A DNA stretch of 64,000 bases from Rhizobium aethiopicum (GTDB lineage: Bacteria; Pseudomonadota; Alphaproteobacteria; Rhizobiales; Rhizobiaceae). Below, in pieces: positions 12,243 to 30,077 of this stretch; positions within the stretch are counted from its first letter, which is position 1; each line of letters starts with the position of its first letter. The notes below the pieces were generated by a model. That model was not told where the DNA came from. It searched no databases and saw only the letters and a program-made list of their open reading frames with translations. A program made the position numbers and the translations under genes. The stretch is taken from contig NZ_JACIFV010000001.1 in assembly GCF_014197535.1 (NCBI RefSeq), positions 124,001 to 188,000 of the forward strand. Direction: 5' to 3'.

Positions 12243-12686
12243 ATGAACTATCACACGTCCGTGTTCACGATCGGCAACCTGGCTAAGTCTTCCGGCGTCA
12301 CCACGCCGACCATCAGGTTCTACGAAGAGATCGGCCTCATTCCGAAGGCGCGGCGGTCACAATCCGGCCAGCGCTACTACGAGGACGAGGATGTTTCTCG
12401 GGTGACCTTCATCAAGCAATGCCGCGACTTCGGCTTCTCGATCGATCAGATCCGCGTGCTGCTGGAACTATCCGTTAGCAGCGAGAGGAACTGCATCGAG
12501 ACGCGGGACATCGCGCAGGGTCATCTGGACGAGGTGAGGCAGAAGATGGAGGAGCTGAGGAAACTGGAAGCGCGGCTGGAGACGTTCGTGAAGCGATGCG
12601 ACGAGGCGTGCGCCGGAGGTCCGGGGGACGAATGCATCATCTTCAAGGATCTTGCCGGCCAACCTACCCGGTCGTGCTGCGGCTAG
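12243..12686 (+). CDS. MerR-family heavy-metal regulator (ZntR/PbrR-like)
   Basis: A 147-residue regulator. The winged helix-turn-helix (IGNLAKSSGVTTPTIRFYEE) and dimerisation helix are followed by metal-site cysteines near 84, 119, 123 and 131 and a C-terminal SCCG. The Cys spacing suits a Zn/Pb/Cd/Hg sensor rather than a redox sensor. The ATG at 12243 has AAGGAG upstream. It faces the leftward operon and the 12207-12225 palindrome, which it should control. Confidence 0.82.
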   Translation: MNYHTSVFTIGNLAKSSGVTTPTIRFYEEIGLIPKARRSQSGQRYYEDEDVSRVTFIKQCRDFGFSIDQIRVLLELSVSSERNCIETRDIAQGHLDEVRQKMEELRKLEARLETFVKRCDEACAGGPGDECIIFKDLAGQPTRSCCG

Positions 12687-14070: not shown

Positions 14071-14071
14071 G

Positions 14072-15130: not shown

Positions 15131-15555
15131 CCATGGACGTCACCATTTATCACAACCCCGACTGCGGGACCTCGCGCAACACGCTGGAGATGATCCGGAA
15201 CGCCGGCATCGAACCGACCGTGATCGAATATCTCAAGACGCCGCCATCCCGTGCCGAACTGACCAAGATGATCGCCGACGCCGGCCTGACCGTCCGGCAG
15301 GCCATCCGCGAGAAGGGAACGCCCTACGCTGACCTCGGCCTCGACGATCCCGATCTGACCGACGATCAGTTGCTCGACGCCATGCTGAAGGATCCGATCC
15401 TCATCAACCGACCATTCGTCGTCACGCCGCTCGGCACCCGGCTGAGCCGCCCGTCCGAAGTCGTGCTCGACATCCTCCCCGACGCCCACAAGGGCGCCTT
15501 CACCAAGGAAGACGGTGAGCGCGTTCTCGACGAGGAGGGAAAGCGCATTGTCTGA
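15127..15555 (+). CDS. arsC: Arsenate reductase, glutaredoxin-dependent type
   Basis: 142 residues of the ArsC/Spx thioredoxin-like fold: [11 protein letters not shown] with catalytic Cys near residue 13, and the arsenate-binding arginines in NRPFVVT and GTRLSRP. It reduces As(V) with glutathione/glutaredoxin. The start ATG overlaps the acr3 stop (ATGA). An internal ATG six bases on is also possible. Confidence 0.93.
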
Positions 15556-16258
15556 AGGATTCCCCGCACTCGACGAAAGCCATCTCGCCCAGCCCGACGT
15601 CGACGCCCTTCGGCCGTCGTTCTCCAGGCACAAGCCCCGGATCCTGATCCTCTACGGCTCGATCCGCGAGGTCTCGTACAGCCGGCTCCTCGCCCACGAA
15701 TCCCGCCGCCTGCTGGAGCGTCTCGGATGCGAAGTCAGGGTATTCGATCCTAAGGGGCTGCCCCTGCCGGACGACGCGCCTGTCAGTCATCCGAAGGTCC
15801 AGGAGCTCAGGGAGCTGTCGGAATGGTCGGAGGGTCAGGTCTGGGTCAGTCCGGAGCGTCACGGCGCAATGACCGGTGTCATGAAGTCCCAGATCGACTG
15901 GATTCCTCTGGCCGTCGGATCGGTTCGCCCGACGCAGGGCAAGACATTGGCGGTGATGCAGGTGTCGGGCGGCAGCCAGTCGTTCAACGCCATCGGTCAG
16001 CTACGCATCCTCGGCCGCTGGATGCGGATGATCACAATCCCCAACCAGTCGTCTGTCGCCAAGGCGTTTCAGGAGTTCGACGCCGATGGGCGGATGAAGC
16101 CGTCGTCCTACTACGACCGTGTCGTCGACGTCTGCGAGGAACTCGTGAAGTTCACGCTGCTGACCCGCGACGCCTCGTCCTACCTGACCGACCGCTACAG
16201 CGAGCGGCAGGAGGACGCGGCCAAGCCGGAGCAGCGTGTACAGTTGAAATCGATCTGA
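15548..16258 (+). CDS. arsH: NADPH-dependent FMN oxidoreductase ArsH
   Basis: A flavodoxin-like fold of about 236 residues with the FMN-binding [12 protein letters not shown], the [18 protein letters not shown] segment and VSGGSQSF, all typical of ArsH, which oxidises trivalent organoarsenicals. The likely start is the TTG at 15548, overlapping the end of arsC by 8 bases behind GAGGAAAG; the frame is open further upstream, but inside arsC. It is the last gene of the rightward ars operon. Confidence 0.92.
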
Positions 16259-16261
16259 CGT

Positions 16262-17068
16262 CTACTTGTGTCGCCAGACCTTCACGGCGGATAGCAGAAG
16301 GATCACCGCCAACGCGGGAAGCAGAAACGCGTTGGGCACGATGCCGAGCAGCCGTCCACCGATGAAGGTTCCCATGATCGACCCTGCGGCCATGACGATC
16401 AGGAACGCCTTGTTGCGTCCGAGCACGGAGAAACTCTGATCCCGGCTGTATCGCGTGAATCCGACAAGCATCGTCGGCAAACTGACGGCCAGCGAAAGGG
16501 ATCCGGCAAGCTTGATGTCCGCGCCGAACAGCAGCACGAGGGTCGGGATCAGGAGTTCGCCGCCCGCCACGCCTAGTAGCGACGCCACGATGCCGATCAC
16601 GAAGCCGGCGACCACTCCAGCGACAAGCTGGGCCCCTCCCGTCAGCAATGGCTGACCCGAAGTCGCGTCGTGTCCGACAACGAGAATGACCGCGATGACT
16701 AGCAGCAGGACGGAGATCACTCTGTAGAGCGTTTCCGACTTGAGGCGGGTCGCCCACCCGGCCCCGAACCATGCTCCTGCCAGACTTCCTGCAAGCAGAT
16801 TGACGATGATCTGCCAGTGGGAGCCGATCTCGCTGAACGGCACGGTCGAGGCACGGAATGGCAACGCGGTCGCGACGACGACCAAGCTCATGGCCTTGTT
16901 GAGGATCACTGCCTCGAGAGCGGCGAAATTGAAGACGCCAATAAGGAGAGGAAGGCGGAATTCCGCGCCGCCCAGTCCTATGAGACCGCCCAACGCACCA
17001 ATGACCGCGCCACCTGAGAAGGCAATAGGCTTGCTGCGATCCACTGGCTCATTGGCAGAAGCGTCCAT
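16262..17068 (-). CDS. TauE/SafE (TSUP) family membrane permease
   Basis: A 268-residue protein with about eight membrane helices arranged as two repeats, each with a glycine-rich signature (GGLIGLGGAEFRLPLL and ASLLGVAGGELLIPTL). The family exports sulfite, sulfoacetate or other anions. It converges on arsH with 3 bases between stops. A role in arsenic or sulphur-compound export is only suggested by position. ATG 17068 is favoured over a GTG at 17092 because GGGGAG precedes it. Confidence 0.8.
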   Translation of the reverse strand: MDASANEPVDRSKPIAFSGGAVIGALGGLIGLGGAEFRLPLLIGVFNFAALEAVILNKAMSLVVVATALPFRASTVPFSEIGSHWQIIVNLLAGSLAGAWFGAGWATRLKSETLYRVISVLLLVIAVILVVGHDATSGQPLLTGGAQLVAGVVAGFVIGIVASLLGVAGGELLIPTLVLLFGADIKLAGSLSLAVSLPTMLVGFTRYSRDQSFSVLGRNKAFLIVMAAGSIMGTFIGGRLLGIVPNAFLLPALAVILLLSAVKVWRHK

Positions 17069-17404
17069 GCTCCCATACTCCCCGAGATACACGTCGAAGC
17101 TTATCCTGTGAAGCTAGCCTTAATGCAAGTGGCGCACTGAGAGCCGCCGCCGCTTGCGCGAAACCGTTCGAGCCTCGTGCCACTCGTCCAGAAAGGCGCG
17201 CACTCGCTTGCAAAGTTCCAATACATCGGCTTCACGGAACGTGGGAGAAGCGGGCGGACAGTACCTCTTCCACACGCACGTGCATGTGATGTGACGGTTC
17301 GACGGCGAACCCCAAACAGGACATCCCTGTGAACCGAATTCAGCTCGCACCTTACCGCTGAATCGGGTAGAAAACTCAGCATTCGGTTAGTCGAACTCTC
17401 CAGG
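17069..17404. other. Intergenic region
   Basis: Between divergent TSUP and CDF genes. I see no supported gene, RNA or repeat. Confidence 0.35.
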
Positions 17405-18004
17405 ATGCCCGTGGTGCAACCCATCGATCCTACGCTTCGGCGAGCGGTGCTAGTCATCGCACTCGCCAATCTCGCTTATTTTGGCGTTGAGTTCGTCGTT
17501 GCGTGGCGCATCGGGTCGGCTTCACTATTAGCCGACAGCGCCGATTTCCTTGAAGATGCCTCGGTTAATCTGCTTATCTTTTTCGCAATGGCATGGTCGG
17601 CGCGCAGCCGCGCTCTGGTCGGTATGGCAATGGCGCTCATCCTGCTCTTGCCCGCCTTCGCCTTTATCTGGACCGGATGGCACAAACTGCTGGATCCAAT
17701 ACCGCCTGCACCATTCGCGCTGGGCTTGACCGGGTTGGGTGCTCTTGTCGTCAATCTTTGCTGCGCCTATCTGCTCGCTGCCTACCGCCATGCTGGCGGC
17801 TCGCTGACGCGGGCGGCTTTCCTCTCAGCTCGCAATGATGCCTTCGCCAATGTCGCCATCATCGCTGCGGGAATCGTTACGGCCTATCTCTGGTCCTCAG
17901 CGTGGCCAGATCTTATCGTGGGTCTGGGTATTGCGTACATGAACCTTGATGCGGCGAAAGAGGTTTGGGGAGCGGCGCGCGCAGAACACCGAGCAGCCGT
18001 ATGA
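17405..18004 (+). CDS. Short cation diffusion facilitator-type protein
   Basis: A 199-residue membrane protein with five or six helices. It has CDF metal-site patterns in two helices (LLADSADFLEDA and LSARNDAFANV), i.e. the HxxxD/DxxxD arrangement with His replaced by Asp. It lacks the cytoplasmic C-terminal domain of full CDF exporters (about 300 residues). It is probably a metal cation/proton antiporter for Co/Zn/Cd. It lies between two arsenic gene groups. Confidence 0.72.
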   Translation: MPVVQPIDPTLRRAVLVIALANLAYFGVEFVVAWRIGSASLLADSADFLEDASVNLLIFFAMAWSARSRALVGMAMALILLLPAFAFIWTGWHKLLDPIPPAPFALGLTGLGALVVNLCCAYLLAAYRHAGGSLTRAAFLSARNDAFANVAIIAAGIVTAYLWSSAWPDLIVGLGIAYMNLDAAKEVWGAARAEHRAAV

Positions 18005-18077
18005 AACGCGGGACCGCGCCGAGCCGATCACAGATATAGACAGACGGAACAACATGGGGCGGAACTCCTATTGCCGT

Positions 18078-19289
18078 TTACTCGGCTGCAACTAGACCCC
18101 GTCTCGTCGTCATGGCCAGGCTGGCGAACGCGGCCATTCCCACAACTCCGAGCGCGGCGGTGGCGAACAGCGACAGGCCGATCCCCAAGCTCTGCATCGC
18201 CGCCGCAAAGGCGAACGGCGCTGCCGCTCCCAGCGCCAACCTTGCGGCCGCCATCTTGCCCGTGATCGTTCCGTAGCCGTCGCTGCCGAACAGGTAGAGC
18301 GGCAGGCTGCCCTGCGCGATGGAATTGATGCCGGACCCCAGGCCCAGGCAAATCGCGAAGGCCACCGCGCCCGGCAGCCAGCTCCCGCTCACGCCTAGAA
18401 TGATAATGCCGACGACCATCAGAGCCGCCGCGATCACCGCGAGGATCGGTGGCGACAATCTCGTCCCGAAGATCATGTTGATCAGACGACTGAGCACCTG
18501 TGCCGGTCCGAACAGCGAACCGACGACGACCGCCGCCGTGCCCAGCCCGAGGTCGCCGAGCATCGGAACCATGTGGGCGAGGATCGAGGCCAGCGTAAAC
18601 CCGAGGATCGCGAAGGCTGCCGAGACGACGATCATTGCGCCGCGGCGTCTCTCGGGCGAAACGGCGCCCACGACGTGTTCCCGAGCACGCTTGGTTCCTG
18701 CGGCGACCGCAGCCCGGCCCTTTCTGGCCATCCACAGGTGCAAGGGCATGCAGACGAACAGGTTGAGTGCCGCAAAGGCGAGATAGATTTCCCGCCATGT
18801 CAGGTATCCCATGAGCGCCGCGGAGATCGGCCAGAAGATCGTCGAAGCGAAGCCGCCGATCAGCGTGAGGTAGGTGATGCTGCGCGACGCCGTCTTCGGA
18901 TCGCTCTCGACCAAGGCCGCGAACGCCGCCTGATATTGGACCATCCCGGACGCCACCTCGATCAGGACGACGGCGAGCGCGAACACGACGATCGACGGCG
19001 ACCACGCGCAGAGCGCCAGCGTCAGGGCTGAAAGCATCGAGCCTATCGTGAGGACGGTCGCAGCTCCGATCCGGTCCATTTGCTTCCCGATGATCGGAGC
19101 CGACAGACCGCCGACGAAGAGCGATGCCGAGAAGACACCGAAGACCTGCTCGAGGGACATGCCGAGATCCTTCGCCATTCCGGGCGCGAGGATCGAGAAG
19201 GAATAGTAGAGGGTGCCGTAGCCGATGATCTGCGTCAGTCCGAGCGCCGATATCGTCGCGACGGGAACCGTTCCCTTCGCTTCAGACAT
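18078..19289 (-). CDS. arsK: Arsenite efflux MFS transporter (ArsK-type)
   Basis: 403 residues, twelve membrane helices in two halves with the MFS loop motif KQMDRIGAATVL after helix 2. The start (TISALGLTQIIGYGTLYYSF) matches MFS proteins of rhizobial arsenic clusters named ArsK, which export arsenite and trivalent organoarsenicals. It is translationally coupled to the arsR at 19282-19644 (8-base overlap), which supports arsenic control. It is the third distinct arsenic-type exporter here. Confidence 0.8.
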   Translation of the reverse strand: MSEAKGTVPVATISALGLTQIIGYGTLYYSFSILAPGMAKDLGMSLEQVFGVFSASLFVGGLSAPIIGKQMDRIGAATVLTIGSMLSALTLALCAWSPSIVVFALAVVLIEVASGMVQYQAAFAALVESDPKTASRSITYLTLIGGFASTIFWPISAALMGYLTWREIYLAFAALNLFVCMPLHLWMARKGRAAVAAGTKRAREHVVGAVSPERRRGAMIVVSAAFAILGFTLASILAHMVPMLGDLGLGTAAVVVGSLFGPAQVLSRLINMIFGTRLSPPILAVIAAALMVVGIIILGVSGSWLPGAVAFAICLGLGSGINSIAQGSLPLYLFGSDGYGTITGKMAAARLALGAAAPFAFAAAMQSLGIGLSLFATAALGVVGMAAFASLAMTTRRGLVAAE

Positions 19290-19644
19290 TCACGTCGTCT
19301 TTCGCAGGCTCGCCGGCGCAGCAGGCGTCGGTGATCTCCTTCGATCCCGTGACGCGCGGATGGCCGGCGCAGCAGTCGAGCATCAGGAACTGCACGAGAC
19401 CGGAGAGCGCGTCGTAGTCGGCGCTGTAGACGATCGAGCGCGACTCCCGACGCTGGGCGATCAGGCCCGAGCGCTCCAGTTCCTTCAAGTGGAAGGAGAC
19501 GTTCGACGGCGAGACGCCCGCCTTCTCGGCGACCGCTCCCGCGGCCATCCCTTCCGGGCCGACGACGACGAGCATCCGGACGATCTGCAGGCGGGTCTCT
19601 TGCGACAGCGCGGCGAATGACAGGAGGGCTTGACGTTCTTCCAT
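19282..19644 (-). CDS. arsR: ArsR-family repressor (second)
   Basis: A 120-residue winged-helix protein. The recognition region is AVAEKAGVSPSNVSFHLKEL; it has LDCCAGHP in the last helix and a C-terminal DACCAGEP, two vicinal Cys pairs suited to As(III). It heads the arsK transcript and faces the DUF6428 gene across an operator at 19645-19672. It differs from the first ArsR in metal-site placement. Confidence 0.9.
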   Translation of the reverse strand: MEERQALLSFAALSQETRLQIVRMLVVVGPEGMAAGAVAEKAGVSPSNVSFHLKELERSGLIAQRRESRSIVYSADYDALSGLVQFLMLDCCAGHPRVTGSKEITDACCAGEPAKDDVNV

Positions 19645-19672
19645 ATTTCGACAATCCTTGAAATGTTGAAAT
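19645..19672. promoter_or_regulatory. Likely ArsR operator between divergent arsR and DUF6428 genes
   Basis: Inverted repeat ATTTCGACA (19645-19653) and TGTTGAAAT (19664-19672), 8 of 9 positions paired, in a 42-base divergent gap. An overlapping CTTGAAAT half-site adds a third copy. It can control both transcripts. Confidence 0.6.
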
Positions 19673-19686
19673 TAGGGATAACCGAT

Positions 19687-20199
19687 ATGAACGTCATCGA
19701 CAAGACCCTATCGAACGACATCCAACTGGGCGCCCTTCTGGCCGCGCTCGACGCCCACGCCGACGCCCCTCTCGTCTTCCGTTACGACGGCCGGGACGTG
19801 AAGGCGGGCTATCATGTGACCGAAGTGAAGACCGGTCGCTTCGACGCTCTCGACTGCGGTGCCAACCCGGAATCGTGGACGGAAATCTTCGTGCAGCTCT
19901 GGGACATCGACGAAGATGGGCGCACGCACATGCCCTCGGGAAAGTTCGCCAAGATCATCCGGAAGGTTTCCGAGCACGTCGGCCTACCGATGAGCGCGAA
20001 GCTTACCTTCGAGGTGAGCGACGGGGTCGCGCCAATGGCCCTATATTGCGCGGCGACGCCGCGGATCGCTGCCGGCCGCGTCTCGGTCGAGCTTGCCCCT
20101 CGTCCGGCGAGCTGCAAGCCTCGCGACCGCTGGCTTGTAGAGGAGAAGGCGAAGTCGGGATGTTGCGCGCCGTCTGCGAACCAGAGTTGCTGCGCTTAA
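19687..20199 (+). CDS. DUF6428 family protein of arsenic clusters
   Basis: A 170-residue soluble protein, unknown function. It contains LVFRYDGRDVKAGYHVTEVK and DCGANPESWTEIFVQLWD, a pattern of proteins that recur beside arsR genes, and ends in cysteine-rich GCCAPSANQSCCA, which could bind As(III). ATG 19687 was chosen after AGGGATAACC; an upstream frame exists but lies over the operator. Confidence 0.7.
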   Translation: MNVIDKTLSNDIQLGALLAALDAHADAPLVFRYDGRDVKAGYHVTEVKTGRFDALDCGANPESWTEIFVQLWDIDEDGRTHMPSGKFAKIIRKVSEHVGLPMSAKLTFEVSDGVAPMALYCAATPRIAAGRVSVELAPRPASCKPRDRWLVEEKAKSGCCAPSANQSCCA

Positions 20200-20813
20200 A
20201 ATCTCGAGTCTCCGACCGACCCAACGTGTCGGCTTCGAAGTCTCCCGGAGCCGTTCACGCTGCAGGTGTCAGCATGCAGACGCCGCTTGATATGCCGAAC
20301 AAAATAGGAACAAATGCGCATCGGCATCGACGCCTGCAGCCATGATCGCTGCAACGCCAAGATCGTTTCCACAAGCGGAGACATGATTATGACCCGGATC
20401 GAGTTACGAATACGCCACTAGGTGCGGCTTTGGGCCAGCGCGCGATTCGCGCGCATTCACGCACCGCGTATCGTCAAGGTCACTCGGCCGGCCTCCATCT
20501 CCATTTCTGCGATGGTTCAAGCTGCCAGAGCGGCGTGCACTCCGTATAGGTTTGGCGCGGCTGCCAAAGACACTTCATCGATACTTGGCGTACCACGCCG
20601 TACCACCTGATTTCGCCAGGATCCGCCGGCGCCGAACTCACGATCGGGATGAACGATCATCGCGCCGAGTTCCGTTGCTAGCGCCTCGACAGCATGAAAT
20701 CGACGATCGACACGATGCACCACTTTATGGACTGATCGAACCATAAAACGGATCAATTTTCGATGGAACGACGTGAACGAAGGACGGCGTCTGTTCATGA
20801 GCGCTCGTGGAAA
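20200..20813. other. Intergenic region without supported genes
   Basis: About 600 bases. Short open frames on both strands have no family pattern and no good ribosome-binding site. It looks like decayed accessory DNA. Confidence 0.35.
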
Positions 20814-21029
20814 TTACCACGACGTGGCGTCTCGTTCTGGTTTCGGGATCCAACCACGGGTAATCCCTCGGCTTAGGAATGAGTTGGCGACCGCGAGCTG
20901 GCTTCTGAGGTGGCCGCAATCCTGCAGAAGGGTTTCGATCGTGGCGCGCGCATCGCCGTCGTGCCAGGCGAGTGCCGCATCGACGGCGTCCAACTGCTCC
21001 GAGGCAGCATGTTGTTTCGGTGAAAGCAC
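20814..21029 (-). CDS. Small hypothetical protein (WHDGDAR type)
   Basis: 71 residues with a GTG start preceded by GGAAGG. The core LDAVDAALAWHDGDARATIETL followed by CGHLRSQLA resembles small rhizobial proteins I have seen as hypothetical; function unknown. It is the last of three short leftward genes, each with its own ribosome-binding site. Confidence 0.5.
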   Translation of the reverse strand: MLSPKQHAASEQLDAVDAALAWHDGDARATIETLLQDCGHLRSQLAVANSFLSRGITRGWIPKPERDATSW

Positions 21030-21141
21030 TGTTTTCGACCTTCCGAGATGCTCTTTGGCGAGCGTCGATGAACATGCTCATTCAATCGGACGCGCGACAT
21101 TGCATCCGTCTCCGAGGGAGTCCTCGGCATTTCCACGTTAG

Positions 21142-21360
21142 CTATCGGCGTGAGTCGCCACAAGCAGTCCGGGGGGTCGCCCTTGCACAAGCTGAACCGT
21201 CGCCGATCAAGCTTAGGATCGAGCATGCTAGTGCTTCGAAATCGCGCGAAGCCCCACGCTCCATCGTTGTTCCGCGCGCGGCTTCGAACAGAAGTTCGTT
21301 CAGGCGCGCGGCCGCTTCGTATTCGGCATCAGCGGCGGCAGACTTGATATCGACGGTCAC
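21142..21360 (-). CDS. Small hypothetical protein
   Basis: A 72-residue frame from GTG 21360, which follows a strong GGAGGA site. It is helical, alanine-rich, cytoplasmic, with no known domain (VTVDIKSAAADAEYEAAARL). An ORF reading further upstream would lose that site. It lies in the same leftward run as its neighbours. Confidence 0.42.
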   Translation of the reverse strand: MTVDIKSAAADAEYEAAARLNELLFEAARGTTMERGASRDFEALACSILSLIGDGSACARATPRTACGDSRR

Positions 21361-21423
21361 GAGGCATCCTCCTCGGACAATCGTCTTCGCGATCGGCACT
21401 AGGAGCAAGCGGAAATTCAGCAG

Positions 21424-21636
21424 CTATTCCTTGCCAGGCCCGCCGCTTGACAGGAAGTCCTTCGCGCTGCCTTGGGCGCCGCTCTTGGCATAAGATACGG
21501 TGAACACGCCCTCTCCATCGAAGACCTGCTGAGGGCCGTCCCTCTTCGCGACGGTGAACACACGGTGAAGGTCTTCACCGTTTTCCGGGTACTGCCATCT
21601 GCTGTCGCGGCTCGTCGGGACACTGCTACTACTCAT
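21424..21636 (-). CDS. Small hypothetical protein
   Basis: 70 residues from an ATG preceded by AAGGA at good distance. It is hydrophilic, with RWQYPENGEDLHRVFTVAKR and a small beta-rich segment (VFTVSYAKSG). No known domain. It is divergent from the PIN-domain gene. Confidence 0.45.
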   Translation of the reverse strand: MSSSSVPTSRDSRWQYPENGEDLHRVFTVAKRDGPQQVFDGEGVFTVSYAKSGAQGSAKDFLSSGGPGKE

Positions 21637-21726
21637 GCGAATCCTTATACCCTCTCGCTAACGATTTGGTAACCATAATTGGCGTCGAATCCACTGATTA
21701 CGGTGGCCGCGAAGGGGACGTCGCGG

Positions 21727-22359
21727 ATGGCAGTGGATTTTATCCTGGTCGACACCAGCGTGCTAAGCGAAGCCCGCAAAATGATCGACGAACTGGACGA
21801 GAACATCGTCTTCTTCCTGCGGCAGATACCCGCGGGAGCCTTGGCCGTCCCCATCGCGGCAATCTTCGAGCTGCAACGTGGGGCCAGCATGATCGCCATC
21901 ACCAAGCCCGCGAAAGCGCGGGCGTATGAAAGTTGGCTCGATCGGCTGCTCGAGACAGATATCTGGCTGCCGCCGGTCGATGTAAGAGTGAGGCGTTTGC
22001 TCGCCGAGATGACGGTCGTTCCGGAACTAAGCCGGTTTTGGCTTGATCGATCGAAAGACCCGAAGCTCCGTTTCGGATGCGACCCCGAGATTGCGGCTAC
22101 GGCGATCGTCTACAGCATACCGTTGGCGTCTACCGACGTCACCGATTTCCTGGCCATCAATCGGCACTTCCCATTGCCGGGCCTCTATTGTCCGATCGGA
22201 GGACGCTGGCATGTTCCTCCCCCCGCCGGCTGGAACCTGGGTGAGAGCCTGGGCCGACATGAGCGAGACTGGAGAAGGGTGATCGGACCTCTGGGTCAAG
22301 TTCGCGAGGAGCAGCACTCGAACTTTGATGACGACACCTTGGAAGCACCAATTCCCTGA
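21727..22359 (+). CDS. PIN-domain (VapC-like) protein
   Basis: 210 residues. The PIN nuclease acidic residues are recognisable: VDTSVLSEARK at the start, an Asp/Glu in IAAIFELQRG, CDPEIAATAIV and STDVTDFLAI at the end. PIN toxins cleave RNA. The protein carries a ~65-residue C-terminal tail not usual in VapC. No antitoxin frame precedes it on the same strand, so it may be orphan or not a toxin. ATG 21727 lies 8-9 bases after AAGGGGA. Confidence 0.65.
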   Translation: MAVDFILVDTSVLSEARKMIDELDENIVFFLRQIPAGALAVPIAAIFELQRGASMIAITKPAKARAYESWLDRLLETDIWLPPVDVRVRRLLAEMTVVPELSRFWLDRSKDPKLRFGCDPEIAATAIVYSIPLASTDVTDFLAINRHFPLPGLYCPIGGRWHVPPPAGWNLGESLGRHERDWRRVIGPLGQVREEQHSNFDDDTLEAPIP

Positions 22360-22976
22360 AACGCCGACGAACTCGAAACCGCAGGCCGTTTCTGCGCGAC
22401 TGAATCCATGAGCAACCTCAGGCAAGCAATTGTTGACAAAACCGCAATCTGCCACGGAATATTTTACTAAAATCTTATCGAATACGGCTCTCGCAACGCA
22501 GGCGGATTTGCCAATCCCGCAATATCCGACGCCGGCCGACGCCGTTTGCGGATATTTTTTCCGTTGACAACACGGTCGAGATCTGAGCCATATTGCGCCA
22601 CCGCTCCAGTCCGGACGGCGTCATATGAGACAGGCAGTCATGAAGTCGAAAGCAGCCACATCGGGCCAACAAGGTTGCCGGCAAGCGTCGTAAGACGCCG
22701 TGGTTTCTATGCCGCGGCACCGACACGACGCCGCCGGCCATCCTCTGAGTTTTCCAACAGTCGGAATTGAGGACGCAGTCATGACACCTAACTTTCTCTC
22801 CACCATCCATCTCCAACGACGCTTCCAAGCGTTCGCGGCCGCCCGCTAGCTTCTCGGAGGCAATTCCGTCCAGCCAGCGCAGCCGTCGAACCTTCCGAAG
22901 CTTTTGTGCAATCGGGTTCGCGGTCGTGCAGTCGTGCGTCGACGCCGCCGGAACCGCCAAGTGGATGGTGACTGGA
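22360..22976. other. Intergenic region, probable left end of the Tn7-like element
   Basis: No supported gene in about 615 bases. It contains short TGACA-type motifs in one orientation: TGTTGACAA (22431), GTTGACAAC (22563) and ATGACACCTAACT (22781). The last resembles, inverted, the right-end repeats at 33104 and 33161. The exact transposon boundary is not clear. Confidence 0.35.
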
Positions 22977-23447
22977 ATGACCAACGTTATCGAAACCAAG
23001 CAGCTTCAGACCAAGCGCTCGCTCGAGCGCCTTGGGACGCTCATCAAGAGCGGCCGAGGCTTCCCCACCATTCGGTTGAACGACGAGAAGAATCTCGATT
23101 TCGTCTATCGCGACGAAATCAACCGCTGGGTCGAGCGTCAGCGCAGCCGCTATTTTACGCGCGAGGAGACGAACCTTCAGTGCGTCGTCGCGCTGCGCTA
23201 CGCCGACCCGACGCGTCCGACCGTCCGCGAGCTCTGGCAGTACCTGCAGGCCCTCATTCTGAAGGACGCCCGCATGATGCCGGGCCGTCGCGCGGTGCGC
23301 TTCCCCTCCTACAGCACCTTTCGCACCCGCGTGGCCGATCTGCCCCGCGAATTCGTCTGGAAGGCGCGCCTTGGCGCAGATGACGGTCGTCCTTCGATGA
23401 TGACGCTCGTCTCGCGCTTCGACGCCATGGTCTCGCGCCAGGCATAG
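22977..23447 (+). CDS. Transposon-associated small protein, paralogue A
   Basis: About 156 residues of unknown function. It shares a pattern with the next gene: YFTREETNLQCVVALRYAD, a tryptophan-containing helix (ELWQYLQAL) and RFPSYSTFRTRVADL. The last piece also resembles VVLPDIRTFYRRVAKI in the N-terminal DNA-binding part of the TnsB-like protein, suggesting a helix-turn-helix. It is probably a DNA-binding accessory factor of the transposon. The start is uncertain (ATG 22977 or 22965). Confidence 0.6.
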   Translation: MTNVIETKQLQTKRSLERLGTLIKSGRGFPTIRLNDEKNLDFVYRDEINRWVERQRSRYFTREETNLQCVVALRYADPTRPTVRELWQYLQALILKDARMMPGRRAVRFPSYSTFRTRVADLPREFVWKARLGADDGRPSMMTLVSRFDAMVSRQA

Positions 23448-23456
23448 GAGGTCGTC

Positions 23457-23921
23457 ATGAACGTTGTCATCACCCAGCAGGACTACGACGCTTTCGAAAA
23501 GAGCCTTTTCGCGGATGTCCGCGTCAAGGCCCGCTTCGACGGAGCCACTCGCCCCCCCAACCCCGAAGACACACCCACTTTCATGAACAAGGAGAGCAAC
23601 GCCATGTTGCAGATCGATTACGTGCGTGTCTTCGAAGATCGCATCAGCCCCTACCCCGAGCTCGTCGACTGGTTGAAGCGCCAGTGCAGCAAAGCCTTCT
23701 CTTACGAGGAGACGGTTCTCCAGTGCGTCTTCGCGATGGAGTACGAGCGCATGGGCTGCTGGTACCGCGCCAACGCCCGCTTGGTTTGGCGCCTTTTGGT
23801 GGCGGAGACCTGCCGGTTCGGTTCGGAAGGCGTGGTGCTTCGCGTTCCTTCCTACGGCACGTTTTTGAAGCGTGTCCGCGCACTGCGCGACACCATGCAG
23901 TCCGCATCGTCGCTGATGTGA
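23457..23921 (+). CDS. Transposon-associated small protein, paralogue B
   Basis: 154 residues, ATG preceded by a strong AGGAGGT. Its core AFSYEETVLQCVFAMEYERM then RVPSYGTFLKRVRAL aligns with the upstream gene over ~70 residues, so the two arose by duplication. A predicted helix-turn-helix near the C-terminus resembles that of the TnsB-like protein. It lies 9 bases after paralogue A and 16 before the next frame, in the transposition operon. Function unknown. Confidence 0.62.
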   Translation: MNVVITQQDYDAFEKSLFADVRVKARFDGATRPPNPEDTPTFMNKESNAMLQIDYVRVFEDRISPYPELVDWLKRQCSKAFSYEETVLQCVFAMEYERMGCWYRANARLVWRLLVAETCRFGSEGVVLRVPSYGTFLKRVRALRDTMQSASSLM

Positions 23922-23937
23922 GGCCGGGAGACAAATC

Positions 23938-24123
23938 ATGATTAAGGTGCTCACTCAGATCCAGGCTGTCTATTTCGCTCGCGCGGGCTACCGCCCCTGG
24001 GAGCGTCAGGCCGAGCGCAGGACGACCGTCGCGGTGCCCGACGAAGGCTATCGCGGCGGCCTTGCGTCGACCGCCGACCGAGGCGCGCAAATACGAGCGG
24101 TCTCTCGAGGAAATGCTCGGTAA
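23938..24123 (+). CDS. Short frame overlapping the TnsA-like start
   Basis: 61 residues from an ATG behind GGGAG. Codon use is good for the first ~45 codons. It ends inside the TnsA-like gene in another frame. It may be a small coupled protein, or the original N-terminus of TnsA separated by a frameshift. No family recognised. Confidence 0.35.
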   Translation: MIKVLTQIQAVYFARAGYRPWERQAERRTTVAVPDEGYRGGLASTADRGAQIRAVSRGNAR

Positions 24124-24793
24124 GACCCTTTATTACGACATGATCGCGGCCCCGTCCGCCCGCCGGGTAGCGATGAAGTCGAGCGCATCCTGTCGAATTT
24201 TGATGTGTGCTCCTGGAACGAACCAGTATCTCGTGTTCGAGAGCCTATTCGAGCGCGACTGTGCCGTCGTCTTCTGGTCGATGAAGACGGTTCGCTCCGT
24301 CACTGCACAGTATGGCCCCATCGAGTGGACCGACGCGGACGGCGTGATCCACGAGCACTACGCCGATCTGCGCGTGGAGTACGAGAACGGCGAAGTAGTC
24401 CTCTACTGCGTGCGACCGATCGGACGTGACCGGCGTGGTATCTTGAGGGCCGTGGTGAAAAGCATTCGTAACCATGAACTCAAGTATCACGCGCATCGGA
24501 TTGAAATCCTTACCGATCGGGTGGTGACGAAAGCCGCCGTTTACCGGGCGCGTGAGATCTTGTCGGCACGACGTCTCATGAACTCCCCAGACTGCGTGCG
24601 ACTGCTCGAACTTCTCAAGGCGAAGATCAAACCGATCCGTGCCTTCGAGATCGTCGAGGAATTCGGGGACGAGGGCCGAGGGATGATCGCGTTGTGGAAT
24701 TTGATGGGCGACGGCTTGGTAGAGCACGTCGTCAAGGATACGTCGCTGACGTTCGAGGCGGTCTCGTTCGTCCGCGCCGCAAGGGTGAACTGA
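24062..24793 (+). CDS. tnsA: TnsA-like endonuclease with altered active site
   Basis: In Tn7, TnsA nicks the 5' ends of the element so that it moves by cut-and-paste. This 243-residue protein has FESLFERD (Glu near 60) and HYADLRVEYENG (Asp near 102), matching two catalytic acids. The usual VEVKP strand reads YCVRP, so the Glu/Gln-x-Lys becomes Cys-x-Arg. Activity is uncertain. The C-terminal ~100 residues are helical, as in the TnsC-contacting domain. The start is a TTG at 24062 or an ATG at 24113/24140. The stop overlaps the TnsB-like ATG. Confidence 0.72.
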   Translation: MRRPPTEARKYERSLEEMLGKTLYYDMIAAPSARRVAMKSSASCRILMCAPGTNQYLVFESLFERDCAVVFWSMKTVRSVTAQYGPIEWTDADGVIHEHYADLRVEYENGEVVLYCVRPIGRDRRGILRAVVKSIRNHELKYHAHRIEILTDRVVTKAAVYRAREILSARRLMNSPDCVRLLELLKAKIKPIRAFEIVEEFGDEGRGMIALWNLMGDGLVEHVVKDTSLTFEAVSFVRAARVN

Positions 24794-27195
24794 TGGACGA
24801 AATGCCCCGCTATACGAGCGTCAAGCTTTCGATATTCGACAGGGTCGAATGGGATGGCGGCGTCTTCCGCGTGAGGCCTTCGAAAGATGGACGAAGTTAC
24901 ATCTTCACGGAGGTCCACGGCGCCGGGCAGATCGAGAAGTTCTCATACGCGCAGATCGCACGGCTTGTCCGAAACCGTGCGATCGTCATCCGCAAGGGCT
25001 ACTATACCGAGGAGGAACTCGACAAGCGGAAGAAGAAGCTGCTCGATCCGGACATCATCCCCGAGCACGTCAGGTTTCGCGCGCGGATGATCACGAAGTT
25101 CCTTGAGGAGCAGAAGCAAGGTCTTCGGTCGAGGTCGGACGAGAGCATTCTCGAATTCTACGACGACTACATGGAGGAATTCGAAAAGCACCTTCCGAAG
25201 GCTCGTGGCGGAAATAAGAAGGTGGTGATCGAGACGCATCACCCCTGCACGCCGCGGCATTTCATGCGCCTCGTGAAAATATTTGAAGACGGATCGTACA
25301 GCTCATTCTCCTTGATGTACGGGGGCGATCCGAGCGAGAAGACGTCTCGGAAGAGCACGCTGTCCGCTCGCACGAATGCGTACATCGACGCGGAGGCCAG
25401 GAAGCTCGCGACCTCCAAACGTACCGAGATTGCCACCCGCTGGCAGTTGATGACCATAGAGAACAGTCACAGCGCCGATCCCGTCGTGCTTCCGGATATC
25501 CGCACATTCTATCGGCGGGTCGCCAAGATAAAAAAGATGTTGATCCACCTTGGTCAGCTAGGCGCGGAAGCGACCCGAAACGAGTTCGAACTTTCAAAGA
25601 CGGCCAATCGACAGTACCACCCTCTCGAACGGATCGAGATGGACGAAGACAAGCTCGACATCATTCTTCTATTGAAGAAAACTCGGCTTTGGAACGTGCT
25701 CCATCCCGACGTTCAAAAACGGCTGGAAGTGCAAAAGGACAGGTTCTGGGCGTCAGTCGCGATCGACGCTGGAACCCGTTCGATCCTCGCCCTACGTCTG
25801 CTCGATGGCGATCCGAACGGCCGGTCCGGCGTCGCGACCCTGCATATGGCGGTCATGCCGAAAGATCATATCGCGGAAGCGGCGGGCACCGAAAACAAGT
25901 GGATCCAGTTCGGCATACCCCAGGAGGTCGCAACCGATCACGGCGCCGCCTACCTCGACACGGAATTCCACGACACGGTCCTCGCACTTAGCGGAAGCCA
26001 TTTGATGCCACCGACCGGCAATCCGAAGCTCCGCGGTCGCATCGAGCGCTTCTTCAGGACCGGAAAGAAATGGCTGAGACTGTTCACAGGGCAGACGTTT
26101 TCCAATCCCCTCGTCCGCGCGAACTACGACTCCGTCGCTAACGCGTCCATGGAGTTCGAGGAATTTGCACGATGCCTCATCCGCCTGATCGTGGACGTCT
26201 ACCATATAACGCCGCACGACGGCCTGGGTGGCCAGAAGCCGATCGACGCCTGGGCGAAGATGACGAAAGCCCGGCCCGTTGACACGCTCACCGATCCTGA
26301 AAAGGAGGGCATGATCTTCGGCTTCCGCGCTGGAAAGCGAAAGATCTCCCGCTCGGGTGTCGTGTGTCTCGGCATCCCGTATTACGACGACACTATCCAG
26401 CACCTCTACAATGAGTTCAAGAACCAGGAGGTCGTCATCAGGGCCAATCCCTACAATCTGGGCCTTCTCGGGGTGCGGTCCGTACGCGATGACGCATTTC
26501 ACTTCGTCAAAGCTGCAGTCCCCGCTTTCGACGGCGTCTCGGCCATCGAATGGGCGGCGACCAAACGACTGTTGAACGAGTCGTACTCTCAATACGACAT
26601 CGAGGATGAAGCCATCATCGGCCGGGCGCTGACCCAGATCCAGGGAACCGCGAAGTTTTCCGAAGACAAGCTTAACGTGTCCGGCCACGTGGTGACCGAG
26701 GACGACTACGACTATTTCGAAAGAGAGTATTTCGCCGGTTACGTCGCGGGTCGCCGGAGCATGCCGGACTACGCGCCTGATCCGGAACGCCTCATTGTTG
26801 ACGAGCTGCCTAGCGAAACCCATGGGGCCGAGGACGGCGAGGACACGACAAGACCCGCGCTGCCCGACGTAACCGAAGCCGAAGCGGGCGACGACGATGA
26901 CGTCTCCACCTCGCTCGGCCCATCAGAAGGGACCTTCGATCCCGGTGTGTTCGCTAGACGGCGCGCGGAAGACGGCGTGGCGGCTCCGCTTTCTATACCA
27001 CCGCCGAAGCCGAGCCCGAAGCCACGCGAGGAAAAGGACAAACCCGTGCGGGAGGTGACCATTTCCGAACTTTTGCGCGGAACCACTGATCTGCTGCCGA
27101 AGAGTTCCGAAGACAAGCAGCGCACCGCCGGCAGGGTGCGGACATTCAAATCCGACTGGGAAGACGAGGAAGATGATGACCCGATCCAGGATTAG
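24793..27195 (+). CDS. tnsB: TnsB/TniA-like DDE transposase
   Basis: An 800-residue Mu-type (rve) recombinase that cuts and joins 3' ends. The N-terminal ~280 residues include a helix-turn-helix (VVLPDIRTFYRRVAKI). The catalytic core shows IEMDEDKLD (first Asp), ATDHGAAYLD (second Asp) and NPKLRGRIERFF (Glu). A beta-barrel Mu C-terminal domain follows. The last ~120 residues are acidic and disordered and end in a basic piece, comparable to the TnsC-binding tail of TnsB. The ATG at 24793 overlaps the TnsA stop. Confidence 0.92.
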   Translation: MDEMPRYTSVKLSIFDRVEWDGGVFRVRPSKDGRSYIFTEVHGAGQIEKFSYAQIARLVRNRAIVIRKGYYTEEELDKRKKKLLDPDIIPEHVRFRARMITKFLEEQKQGLRSRSDESILEFYDDYMEEFEKHLPKARGGNKKVVIETHHPCTPRHFMRLVKIFEDGSYSSFSLMYGGDPSEKTSRKSTLSARTNAYIDAEARKLATSKRTEIATRWQLMTIENSHSADPVVLPDIRTFYRRVAKIKKMLIHLGQLGAEATRNEFELSKTANRQYHPLERIEMDEDKLDIILLLKKTRLWNVLHPDVQKRLEVQKDRFWASVAIDAGTRSILALRLLDGDPNGRSGVATLHMAVMPKDHIAEAAGTENKWIQFGIPQEVATDHGAAYLDTEFHDTVLALSGSHLMPPTGNPKLRGRIERFFRTGKKWLRLFTGQTFSNPLVRANYDSVANASMEFEEFARCLIRLIVDVYHITPHDGLGGQKPIDAWAKMTKARPVDTLTDPEKEGMIFGFRAGKRKISRSGVVCLGIPYYDDTIQHLYNEFKNQEVVIRANPYNLGLLGVRSVRDDAFHFVKAAVPAFDGVSAIEWAATKRLLNESYSQYDIEDEAIIGRALTQIQGTAKFSEDKLNVSGHVVTEDDYDYFEREYFAGYVAGRRSMPDYAPDPERLIVDELPSETHGAEDGEDTTRPALPDVTEAEAGDDDDVSTSLGPSEGTFDPGVFARRRAEDGVAAPLSIPPPKPSPKPREEKDKPVREVTISELLRGTTDLLPKSSEDKQRTAGRVRTFKSDWEDEEDDDPIQD

Positions 27196-28240
27196 TGAGA
27201 AACCGGAACACTCGATGGTCAACGATGAAATCGCCAAGCTTATAGCGGCCTCGGCCGACTTGGCGCTGGACGAAACGGACCGTCGCATCAAAACGATCAT
27301 GAAAAACGTCAAGCTCGCCTATTTTTCCACGCCGAACGACAAGCTGATCGACATTCCGATAAAACGGATGAAACGAGCAATCGCCGCCCATGATCCCGAC
27401 ACGTTCGCGGTATCGATCCATGGGGAGACGGGCGCCGGAAAGTCGACCCTCTTCGAGCAGCGGCTGAAGGACGAACCTTCGTTCCGACCAGTTCCCGACG
27501 GGTACGGCAACGATCTCTATCCGGTCCTCTACATCAAGGCTCCTTCGAAGGCGACTATGGTCGACCTGGGCGAAGAGCTGCTCGACGCCATGGGGTATCC
27601 GACCAAGAAGAGAAAGCACGAGTCGGATCTGATCCGCGACGTCCGCAACGCGCTTCGTAGGCGTGGAACTAGAGTTGTCCTGATCGACGAGTTCCAGCAC
27701 GTGCTTGACGCCCCCAAGGTGAAGGGGCCGAGCCATGTCGCGGACTCCATCAAGAACCTTCTCCAGAACCCGAAATGGCCTATCTTCATCGTCCTGATGG
27801 GCCTGCCGGAAATCAAGGAAGTCGCCCTTCGTGATCCGAAGGATCAGTTCCTGCGCCGCGTCGACGATTTCGCCCTCCAGACACTGTCGTTGAAGGCCGA
27901 CGCAAAATTCATCGCGAACGTCATAAAGGAACTGGTGGTGAACCGAGCGGGCCTTCGGATGCCGTCCGCGGTAGTGCCGGATTTCATCGAGCGACTGATG
28001 TATGGCGCTCACTTTCGCTACGGCATGGTCATGAAGATCATCTACCACGCCATCGAGGACGCATTGGAAAACGATCTGGGCGAAGTCACGATGTTGTGCT
28101 GGGAGGAAGGCTACCGACGGCTGGTCAATGGTGACGCAGTCCCCGAAACCAACGTCTTCGCCGCCGACAACTGGCGTTCGATCCTTCGTCCGGTCAATCG
28201 AAGAGGCGAGTTCGGCCCGCCATCGGTTCGGGCAGCTTGA
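27173..28240 (+). CDS. tnsC: TnsC/TniB-like AAA+ transposition regulator
   Basis: A 355-residue ATPase that links target choice to the transposase. Walker A GETGAGKST (about residue 85), Walker B VVLIDEFQHVLD with the TniB-typical FQH. The start overlaps the tnsB end by 23 bases, behind GAGGAAG. An alternative ATG lies three bases on. Normal length for TniB/TnsC-type proteins of this branch. Confidence 0.9.
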   Translation: MMTRSRISEKPEHSMVNDEIAKLIAASADLALDETDRRIKTIMKNVKLAYFSTPNDKLIDIPIKRMKRAIAAHDPDTFAVSIHGETGAGKSTLFEQRLKDEPSFRPVPDGYGNDLYPVLYIKAPSKATMVDLGEELLDAMGYPTKKRKHESDLIRDVRNALRRRGTRVVLIDEFQHVLDAPKVKGPSHVADSIKNLLQNPKWPIFIVLMGLPEIKEVALRDPKDQFLRRVDDFALQTLSLKADAKFIANVIKELVVNRAGLRMPSAVVPDFIERLMYGAHFRYGMVMKIIYHAIEDALENDLGEVTMLCWEEGYRRLVNGDAVPETNVFAADNWRSILRPVNRRGEFGPPSVRAA

Positions 28241-28253
28241 CGGGACCAAGAAA

Positions 28254-30077
28254 ATGCTACGTGTCCCGCTCTTCGATGACGAAATGCTTACAAGCTACTG
28301 CGCCCGCCTGGCTGCGGCCAACCTGACGACGGCGACCGATCTGTCCCTGGACATGGGCGTCACGTTCCAGAACGTCATAGACGGCGCCGAAAGGGCGATA
28401 GACGCGCTGGCGGAATATAGCCGTGTTCCGGTTGCTCGGCTGCGGTCAGCAGCGGTCGTCACGTCGGGAAGGATTCTCAATCTGCAGGGAGAGCCACTGA
28501 CGTGGCAAAACTATTCGCGAACGCGACTGCGGTTCTGCCCAGGTTGCTTTCGGGACGACGACCGTTCGAAAGACCGTATGCCCGGAACGCGTCGCTACAT
28601 ACGGCGGAGCTGGGCGCTACGTTTCCTTCGCACGTGTGCTCGGCATCAGTTGAAGATGGTCGACCTAGGCGCCTCGCCGCTCCACCCACCCCGCAATCAG
28701 GATTTCATCGAGAATCTGGAAGAGCTTTACGACCAGGTCGAGGAGGCGATCGTCTCGCCCACCGCACGGCAGCCATCGGATTTCGAAAAATTCCTGCTTC
28801 GCCGATTGGACGGAATTCGTTGCGACGGCGAGTTGCTTGATGAGCTTCCCCTCGAACTGGCGGCTCTCGTATGCACGCTGATTGGCGTGGCCGCCCTCCA
28901 TGGACCGAAAGCCCGTGAAGAAGCGCACGACGACGATCAGCTATGGGAAGCATCCCAGACAGGTTTCGAATATCTTGCTGGTGGGGTCGCCGGAATGCAC
29001 TCGTTTCAAGATCTAATGCACCGCTCGATCTCTGCGGTCCGCTGCGACATCGGCGGGCAGAAAATCTATGGAAACTTCTATGTAAGGCTCAAGGACCGGA
29101 AAGATCCGGCTCTCGATCGGCTGAAATGCGAAATCCATACCTATGCTGTCGAAGTGCTGCCGCTGAGCGGGGATTCCGAGGTGTTCGGAAGACCTGAGGT
29201 CACCAGATACGTATCAGAAAAGCAGCTTCGAAAGGAATTCGGACACCGGCCCGGCCATATGCGCAAAATGGCGGTGGCGATGGGATTCCTCAGTTCCTCG
29301 GAAATTGACGCAGGTGCGATGCCGCGAGACGTCGCCGTAAGAATTTCGGAGCTTATCTCCGATGCGGTCCTGCCGAGAGAGGCCGCAGAGATGCTTTCGG
29401 TGCGCACTGTCAATTTTAATGACCTGCGTCGAGCCGGCATCTTTTCGCCCGTCCTTTCATCTGGAAATGGCGTCGACGCCCACGAGCGCTTTTCCCGAAC
29501 AGCGATCACCGAGTTCCTCTCGGGGCTCCGCTCTATCGCCGTGTATCCGTCCGACGGGCTGATGCGCCCGATATTGAGGGCGTGCAAGATGACAGCGATC
29601 AGGCTCGGCGACATGGTCGCCCTCATCCTCCAGGGGCGGCTCTCCAAAGTCGGATGGGACGCTGATAAGGAAGGGCTTTCGGCGATACTGATCGATCCGC
29701 GCGAGGCAAGCGCCGCCCTCGCTCCCGCTGGTCCCAAAAAGCTTACGATCACCAAAATGAAGGAGCGCCTAAAGACTTCCAACGAGACGGCGTATGCACT
29801 CGTCAGGGGCGGCTATCTGAATTCGTCAATGGAACGTAGTCATGCGCACAACCATCCGCTTCGATTAATCAGCCAAGAGGACGCGGATGCATTCGAGAAG
29901 AAATACGTGTCGTTCCTAACTGCCGAAAAGGACCTTGGAATTAGCCGGTCTACCTTGCGGAAGGCGATCAAGAACGCCGACCTGCAGACCGCCTTTCCAT
30001 TGGACGAGGTAAGAGTTTCGTTCTACGTCCGAGCCGAACTTGAGGCCGCGATCCGGGTGATCGCGGGCGCGGATTAG
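28254..30077 (+). CDS. tniQ: Long TniQ/TnsD-like target-selection protein
   Basis: 607 residues. The N-terminal TniQ domain (PLFDDEMLTSYCARLAAAN) is followed by a zinc-ribbon pattern FCPGC...CARH. The C-terminal half holds several helix-turn-helix-like segments (AAEMLSVRTVNFNDLRRAG, LKTSNETAYALVRGGYL, LGISRSTLRKAIKNADL), as in TnsD proteins that read a fixed chromosomal site. Its size favours TnsD-type site targeting over the short TniQ of Tn5053 or CRISPR-guided elements. The ATG at 28254 follows GGGACCAAGA; the longer frame starts inside tnsC. Confidence 0.87.
   Translation: MLRVPLFDDEMLTSYCARLAAANLTTATDLSLDMGVTFQNVIDGAERAIDALAEYSRVPVARLRSAAVVTSGRILNLQGEPLTWQNYSRTRLRFCPGCFRDDDRSKDRMPGTRRYIRRSWALRFLRTCARHQLKMVDLGASPLHPPRNQDFIENLEELYDQVEEAIVSPTARQPSDFEKFLLRRLDGIRCDGELLDELPLELAALVCTLIGVAALHGPKAREEAHDDDQLWEASQTGFEYLAGGVAGMHSFQDLMHRSISAVRCDIGGQKIYGNFYVRLKDRKDPALDRLKCEIHTYAVEVLPLSGDSEVFGRPEVTRYVSEKQLRKEFGHRPGHMRKMAVAMGFLSSSEIDAGAMPRDVAVRISELISDAVLPREAAEMLSVRTVNFNDLRRAGIFSPVLSSGNGVDAHERFSRTAITEFLSGLRSIAVYPSDGLMRPILRACKMTAIRLGDMVALILQGRLSKVGWDADKEGLSAILIDPREASAALAPAGPKKLTITKMKERLKTSNETAYALVRGGYLNSSMERSHAHNHPLRLISQEDADAFEKKYVSFLTAEKDLGISRSTLRKAIKNADLQTAFPLDEVRVSFYVRAELEAAIRVIAGAD

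Follow-up and report, generated by a model that had tools for sequence, protein, structure and literature searches.

What are the two small proteins that head a transposition operon in Rhizobium aethiopicum, and what might they do there? The operon lies on the plus strand of a 64,000-nucleotide stretch (the window; positions 124001-188000 of contig NZ_JACIFV010000001.1, in a source genome of 6.49 Mb in 61 contigs) and runs in the order PIN-domain gene, leader of ~550 bp, two short open reading frames (ORF1 and ORF2), TnsA, TnsB, TnsC/TniB and TniQ. Sequence profiles and predicted models support the assignment of ORF1 and ORF2 as free-standing proteins of the I-gamma helix-turn-helix type and homologues of DNA-binding domain 2 of the transposases TnsB and MuA. 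ORF2 also appears to bear a segment resembling the TnsB C-terminal region of the same element, which sequence comparisons support in both elements that carry ORF2. The features needed first are as follows.

22977..23447, + strand: ORF1, putative stand-alone I-gamma-type (TnsB DNA-binding domain 2) protein, 156 amino acids (aa)
23457..23921, + strand: ORF2, adjoining paralogue, 154 aa, its second half being the predicted I-gamma-type domain
24694..27195, + strand: TnsB-like DDE transposase
25339..25593, + strand: TnsB segment equivalent to ORF1/ORF2, directly before the DDE domain, placed by an alignment of 36 TnsBs

The translation start of ORF1 is uncertain, with GTG 22926 (173 aa), ATG 22965 and ATG 22977 (156 aa) as candidates. 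The ATG of ORF2 follows the ORF1 stop by 9 bp and is preceded by a GGAGG site.

ORF1 and ORF2 resemble the DNA-binding region of TnsB

A first-pass annotation, made from the sequence alone, had described two adjacent paralogues that carry EETxLQCV and PSYxTFxxRV motifs, the latter also resembling a segment of the window's TnsB. Both motifs are present in both genes, as EETNLQCV (23163-23186) and PSYSTFRTRV (23304-23333) in ORF1 and as EETVLQCV (23706-23729) and PSYGTFLKRV (23847-23876) in ORF2, and blastp identifies the two as paralogues (38% identity over 76 aa, E 7e-11). Among 4822 ORFs from 43 sources (the window and 42 further loci, designated by L numbers), the strict motifs recur only in ORF1 of the relative L078. 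Relaxing the PSY motif adds only the window's TnsB, at 25492-25521. The earlier observation is confirmed. The likeness to TnsB exceeds the motif, extending over ~80 residues, and becomes clear once relatives are included. Against the window's own TnsB alone the family gives a weak signal, with E 0.048 for a core profile and no match for the six-protein profile described below, and the direct match of segment 25339..25593 to the family is likewise weak.

The six-protein profile was made from ORF1 relatives only, without TnsB, and was searched against 4213 ORFs from 37 sources (E <=10, HMMER default filters). It matches 11 small genes, six of which are its own rows, together with 18 of 34 TnsB ORFs, and none other. 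The best-scoring stretches in the TnsBs fall within residues 195-364, directly before the DDE domain, with a best E of 2.8e-10. Alignment with TnsB by profile methods had been named beforehand as a check on the idea, and homology was found: hhalign aligns the 11 small proteins with the 36-TnsB alignment over 79 columns with a probability of 97.4 and P 1e-11. Control alignments gave P 0.13 for the best of 100 column shuffles and P 0.4 for a reversed profile. When the eight-row family profile A3 was run against 177,635 PDB sequences, PseTnsB took first and second place (E 0.017 and 0.03) and MuA I-gamma ranked 5th (E 1.0).

Neither ORF1 nor ORF2 belongs to a family in Pfam, NCBIfam, PHROGs or PADLOC at E up to 1. 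At the same limit, Pfam finds no TniQ domain in either protein (the window's TniQ matches at 6.8e-20), and Pfam and NCBIfam find no MerR or Xre helix-turn-helix match. No RNase H-like DDE catalytic domain is found in ORF1, with its 156 aa, or in ORF2, with 154 aa, and the matches of the two proteins to TnsB are confined to the DNA-binding segment and a tail segment considered below.

Predicted structures point to an I-gamma-type fold

An AlphaFold2 model of ORF1, computed from an alignment of four small proteins, has a mean predicted local distance difference test score (pLDDT) of 60.9, with ten-residue block means of 69-92 over residues 51-130. Its best two Foldseek rows are 9bw1 (TnsABCD-DNA transpososome) and 2ezh (MuA I-gamma), at weak E values of 1.2 and 1.4. 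VIA-align, used as a second look at the matches from Foldseek, places four entries at the top of 604: 9bw1 (Z 7.1, 72 residues, root-mean-square deviation 3.4), 4fcy (Z 5.1, 65 residues, 2.2), 2ezh (Z 5.0, 65 residues, 2.2) and 2ezi (Z 4.7, 72 residues, 2.7). The first unrelated row has Z 3.9. For the ORF2 model (mean pLDDT 63), 9bw1 is first of 458 with Z 5.1 over 68 residues, the next row having 4.1, and the match covers the same chain residues as that of ORF1. We take the matched chain M of 9bw1 to be a TnsB chain from the title of the entry; in a phmmer search run to confirm this, 9bw1 was not among the matches listed. Cre rows, which bear on a comparison with tyrosine recombinases of the TnsF type, reach Z about 3 for ORF2 amid unrelated rows of like Z, and a BFVD fold search with ORF1 gave no clear match.

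These models support a fold of the MuA I-gamma helix-turn-helix type for both proteins, and structures devoid of a helix-turn-helix, which were to have counted against the proposal, were not obtained. A Z below 8 alone is not decisive; we favor the domain assignment because sequence profiles, their controls and the predicted fold agree. The earlier description of the pair as stand-alone TnsB-type DNA-binding domains in a transposition operon is supported; the end-binding and target-choice roles suggested with it are candidates only. A TnsB-tail-like start of ORF2, a third paralogue type and a conserved leader, all treated below, were not part of that description.

Distribution and evolution of the small genes

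Searching 100 genomes of the genus and order with a single sequence turned up relatives of ORF1 in 6, its own genome included, and the TnsB alignment supplied 31 named loci with their flanks. Profile searches of whole genomes covered 148 genomes of the genus and 397 of the order, where at most 27 and 10 candidates per genome, respectively, were scored, so that weaker relatives can be missed. The genus set yields 27 matches in 22 genomes. Twelve are intact frames no longer than 224 aa, 14 lie in frames as long as TnsB (732-840 aa; those examined, one each in L080-L082, are TnsB), and one is a 79-aa stretch with three stops (G166:C18, E 0.006). In the order set, small matches occur only in the genome of the window, and five others lie in frames of 571-785 aa.

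All 12 intact small matches adjoin tns genes (window, L009-L013 and L077-L080, with L012 being a short contig that ends inside TnsA). Occurrence of the genes independent of the transposon, the other outcome that was to have counted against the proposal, was therefore not seen. One further small relative, in L022 (Mycoplana), comes from the named loci. The core profile detects 16 small ORFs in 12 of the 43 sources at E below 1e-4, although 11 of the 16 are rows of the profile and match by construction. The sources include mutual copies and loci that lack the upstream side, and no prevalence figure is intended. Occurrence in other elements, also named beforehand as a check, extends to 10 distinct elements: window, L009, L010 (equal to L024), L011 (nearly identical to L077), L012, L013, L022, L078, L079 and L080. 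Divergent candidates at the equivalent place upstream of TnsA in L019, L020, L023 and L044 (E 0.024-0.13) are likely members of the family as well. With ORF1 as query, a single-sequence search of genome contigs and a tblastn search of plasmids gave no matches; both are too insensitive to speak for absence. In viral contigs searched with the TnsB alignment, none of 196 pattern-matching stretches encodes a relative.

Two of the loci have additional small genes. L013 carries, at 11694-12483 on the minus strand and before TnsA, two small genes with LPSxxTFRRxx motifs whose membership of the ORF1 family is weak (E 7e-5 each), besides an ORF1-type gene at 13881-14264. In L032, an ORF of 119 aa (6810-7169) matches the TnsB profile at 7e-16, apparently through the N-terminal region of TnsB. 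Two TnsA-matching fragments (6177-6820) precede it and the main TnsA (8315-9169) follows; it may be a further free-standing TnsB piece or belong to a remnant.

A second paralogue accompanies the small gene in seven of the 10 elements, counting ORF2 of the window and L078, the two elements of the window/L078 type, in which alone ORF2 was found. A third paralogue type, a small gene after ORF1, is found in L010, L011 (two copies), L012, L013 and L079. Its profile aligns with that of the ORF1 family with a probability of 91 and P 1e-6, and weakly with TnsB (probability 27, P 6.6e-4); in neither comparison was any of 100 shuffles as good. L009 has ORF1 alone, and in L080 a second ORF matches the TnsB profile at 1.4e-6.

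Could these genes be functionless remnants of a broken TnsB copy, given that their recognizable parts are TnsB-like pieces? When 51 domains are placed in a tree, one branch (support 91/93, not starred) separates all 20 small proteins from all 31 TnsBs, with one change in 95% of bootstraps. The tree omits five of the 36 TnsBs, which are copies, incomplete or distant (L010, L020, L021, L042 and L077), and, among the small genes, the copies in L024 and L077, the two weak members of L013 and those of L080, L017 and L020. Its branches are long, with a warning that long branches meet (L022 with the L019/L023/L044 group). Nonetheless, it provides moderate sequence evidence for a single ancient split, as opposed to TnsB having broken up repeatedly. 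Ratios of nonsynonymous to synonymous substitution (dN/dS) between window and L078 are 0.25 for ORF1 and 0.30 for ORF2, compared with 0.19 for TnsA, 0.15 for TnsB, 0.14 for TnsC and 0.22 for TniQ; all are rough values because dS is high, and saturated for the PIN gene. ORF1 and ORF2 are thus under purifying selection and are not decaying fragments. An origin as remnants is largely refuted and seems to us extremely improbable, since open frames of the family persist in 10 distinct elements, a GGAGG site stands before ORF2, dN/dS is about 0.25-0.3, and the small proteins group apart from the TnsBs instead of appearing as fragments of each element's own TnsB.

ORF1 travels with a conserved leader

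The remainder of the operon, apart from two segments of ORF2 and TnsB given later, comprises the following features.

21715..22359, + strand: PIN-domain gene (PIN match E 1.4e-4), partly co-inherited with leader and ORF1
22430..22976, + strand: conserved leader from the PIN gene to ORF1, common to window, L009 and L078
22640..22693, + strand: leader peptide 1, 17 aa, kept in three elements (alignment, by eye)
22781..22849, + strand: leader peptide 2, 22 aa, partly kept in three elements (alignment, by eye)
23938..24793, + strand: TnsA-like gene divided between two frames that overlap, 23938-24123 and 24062-24793 (NF033179 E 0.0017, below the cut-off)
27173..28240, + strand: TnsC/TniB-type AAA+ ATPase (PF05621, 9.4e-21)
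28128..30077, + strand: TniQ protein (PF06527, 6.8e-20) with an additional HTH_17 match (PF12728, 2.2e-6)

Region 22430-22976 looks like a regulatory leader. Within it, L078 has an exact copy of a 45-bp block (22927-22971) and L009 a copy with one mismatch; the block overlaps the region by which ORF1 could be extended upstream in frame. Used as a query, 22550-22976 matches four of the 148 genus genomes, its own included; in one of these, G161, only 35 bp match, directly before two small ORFs and a TnsA gene. RNAalifold found no covariation support among the three leader sequences (term +1.59), and no RNA structure is claimed. In 20000-24300, Rfam gives no more than a sub-threshold Guanidine-II match (E 0.25), which lies ahead of the PIN gene at 21531-21580 and on the minus strand.

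Exchange of the PIN-ORF1 block was assessed on 12 pairs of elements. Window and L078, which serve as the baseline, show identities of 57% for PIN, 73% for ORF1, 71% for TnsA and 63% for TnsB. Between window and L009, by comparison, identity is 71% for PIN and 53% for ORF1 but only 37% for TnsA, 32% for TnsB and 37% for TnsC, and L010 and L011 share 59% for PIN and ORF1 versus 28% for TnsA and 27% for TnsB. The pattern is reversed between window and L012, with TnsA at 66%, PIN at 46% and ORF1 at 32% (the L012 contig has no TnsB). From these identity contrasts we conclude that the PIN-ORF1 block is one that has been swapped between distant tnsABC cores.

What function would suit such a pair of proteins? 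We infer, and would put the chances at about even, that ORF1 and ORF2 bind DNA of the element and, by regulating transposition or the operon, hold transposition in check or tune it. We favor a regulatory role because the pair heads the tns genes, because ORF1 and leader are common to window, L009 and L078 even though the TnsBs of L009 and the window are only 32% identical, and because the genes are under purifying selection. The proteins would bind an operator in the conserved leader, or TnsB sites at the element ends, and ORF1 would act on the leader and promoter with which it travels. Swapping of modules between distant tns cores suits regulation better, and end binding fits less well. Exchange of the PIN-ORF1 block is also what might be seen if the proteins chose targets, binding the insertion site and passing it to TnsC or TniQ, since Tn7-like elements are known to have modular target selectors (PMC10293859, PMC11406308). 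Such a role is improbable in our estimate, as Pfam finds no TniQ domain in ORF1 or ORF2 and the window's TniQ already has an extra HTH_17 match.

ORF2 begins with a segment like the TnsB tail

The regulatory reading gains a possible mechanism from the start of ORF2, in which the following segments are concerned.

23466..23567, + strand: ORF2 N-terminal segment like the TnsB C-terminal region (TnsB residues 666-698)
26686..26799, + strand: counterpart of the ORF2 segment in the C-terminal region of TnsB

Over its first ~40 residues, ORF2 of the window aligns with TnsB residues 666-698, and ORF2 of L078 with TnsB residues from about 634 to 670. Scores against the cognate TnsB are 57 (window) and 80 (L078), neither of which is reached by any of 2000 shuffles. 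Cognate pairs also exceed crossed pairs (57 vs 52 and 80 vs 57); for the crossed scores, 2 and 1 of 2000 shuffles do as well. When the two ORF2 starts are made into a profile, its best non-self matches are the two cognate TnsBs (5.8e-5 and 0.024, the next being 1.2), and a TnsB-tail profile finds ORF2 of the window as its best match outside TnsBs and their fragments (0.0074). In TnsB, the matched segment comes after the last well-aligned helix and, by eye, is conserved in the TnsB group. The N-terminus of ORF1 shows no likeness to TnsB in window or L078, where 702 and 366 of 2000 shuffles, respectively, reach its score. That of L009 is suggestive only, with 91 of 2000 shuffles reaching the score and the match lying in the right place.

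In the reading that we favor, the pair would be a control cassette derived from the transposase, in which ORF2 would act as a catalytically empty mimic of TnsB, whose TnsB-like segment would contact the partner of that part of TnsB, either TnsC or other TnsB subunits. In its full form, which we offer tentatively and hold to be doubtful, this idea makes ORF2 a natural mimic that combines an I-gamma end-binding domain with a C-terminal TnsB segment tracking its own TnsB, and that would compete with TnsB, or seat it, at the ends and at the partner. With ORF1 and the leader it would form a transposase-derived control cassette, the ORF1 part of which is swapped between Tn7-like transposons.

The same segment might be expected of structural helpers of the transpososome, in which extra I-gamma domains, perhaps supplied by ORF1 and its paralogue as a pair, would sit on end repeats beside TnsB and promote end pairing. 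Such helpers would also account for the second paralogue in seven of 10 elements. We consider this explanation unlikely, however, because the ORF1 block has been exchanged between cores whose TnsBs are only 27-32% identical, which would be odd if sites were shared with TnsB, and because in many related elements these profiles detect no copy.

Truncated forms of a transposase serve as inhibitors elsewhere, for example in Tn5. By analogy, the proteins might be decoys that interfere, in the manner of immunity, with incoming related transposons by occupying their TnsB sites or partners. TnsB-like pieces without a catalytic domain that are exchanged between cores are consistent with such interference, to which we nevertheless assign a very low likelihood.

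Several observations weigh against reading the pair as I-gamma-type regulators with a TnsB mimic among them. Sixteen of the 34 TnsBs, including those of the window, L009 and L010, have no match to the six-protein profile. Foldseek E values are weak (1.2 and up), the mean pLDDT is low for both models (61 and 63), and MuA is not among the best 50 of 458 rows in the fold search with ORF2. Leader and ORF1 adjoin, so that their joint transfer may be mere linkage. No element end or binding site could be pinpointed, and both DNA binding and its target are putative. The tail match of ORF2 is limited to about 35 residues in two elements, and ORF2 of L078 is reached by the TnsB-tail profile only at E 0.58. 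Finally, the matched segment lies ~130 residues before the end of TnsB, unlike the TnsC-binding hook of the ShCAST transposon, which one report places in the last 15 residues of TnsB, at the extreme C-terminus (PMC9371665). A TnsC contact of ORF2 is therefore a guess.

Other features of the locus

Divergent from the PIN gene, a small protein that by eye is possibly antitoxin-like is encoded in the window (21424-21636, minus strand) and in L078 (15953-16153, plus strand), and L090 has a similar ORF. Farther upstream, at 13988-20199, lie ACR3-, ArsC-, ArsH- and ArsR-like genes, named by eye; this arsenic-resistance-like set may be cargo of the element.

By eye, a likely N-terminal part of TnsA (window 23938-24143) is out of frame with the catalytic part in window, L012, L078 and L009. 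In L081, by contrast, a similar part shares the frame of the remainder. In L012, every usual start codon of the catalytic frame comes after conserved TnsA residues. The gene might be translated by programmed frameshifting, or TnsA might consist of two parts. At the third active-site position, nine TnsAs have R and not the K whose role we presume from Tn7 TnsA (window, L009, L010/L024, L012, L022, L036, L078, L079 and L081). Seven of these nine elements also have ORF1; L011, L013 and L080 combine an ORF1-type gene with K.

Repeats around the PIN gene and in L078 include no convincing pair of element ends. On the other side, 8.5 kb from window position 30000 compared with 40 other genomes gave no clean junction (12 of 41 matched, its own included). 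Shared chromosomal DNA starts at 34568 at the earliest, and mostly at about 34760 or 35670. L009 and L078 lie near the same host gene (an ABC-F ATPase), and L011, L077 and L080 near the same gene pair (metallophosphoesterase and transthyretin-like), all named by eye. That different elements lie near the same host genes suggests fixed insertion sites.

Comparison with known systems

To our knowledge, control of transposition in Tn7-like elements without CRISPR parts is largely open. If our interpretation is correct, proteins akin to the transposase that head the tns genes and are exchanged between elements would constitute a new class of control or helper factor, and their use in tuning transposase tools is possible. 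The literature searched, most subscription papers being outside its scope, contains in the portions available no description of stand-alone TnsB DNA-binding domains.

The closest counterparts are I-gamma of MuA (2EZH, 2EZI; 4FCY residues 178-242) and domain 2 of TnsB (PseTnsAB 30JV; 9BW1). The family matches 30JV and 2EZH by profile, and 9BW1, 4FCY, 2EZH and 2EZI by fold over 65-72 residues. In MuA and TnsB, however, this is one domain of the transposase polypeptide, whereas here it forms a separate protein of ~100-180 residues without a catalytic domain. Phage Mu offers a parallel in its repressor c, a regulator akin to a DNA-binding domain of its own transposase: the repressor shares a DNA-binding domain with MuA. 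That shared domain is I-alpha, not I-gamma, and binds operator and enhancer (Mu repressor/Ner).

TnsD/TniQ, TnsE and TnsF are modular accessory DNA-binding proteins of Tn7-like elements, as ORF1 and ORF2 would be. TnsD and TniQ differ in their TniQ domain, which Pfam does not find in either protein. TnsF is built on a tyrosine-recombinase-like protein (PMC10293859), with core-binding and partial catalytic domains of that family; ORF1 and ORF2 have no Pfam match.

CvkR (MerR type) and VpxR (Xre type) are likewise transposon-encoded DNA-binding proteins that control a Tn7-like element (PMC9938897, PMC12150760), a role that ORF1 and ORF2 would share. The control proteins of two types of CRISPR-associated transposon (CAST) are transcriptional regulators co-opted from different sources (PMC11406308), whereas ORF1 and ORF2, which have no MerR or Xre match, appear to be akin to the transposase.
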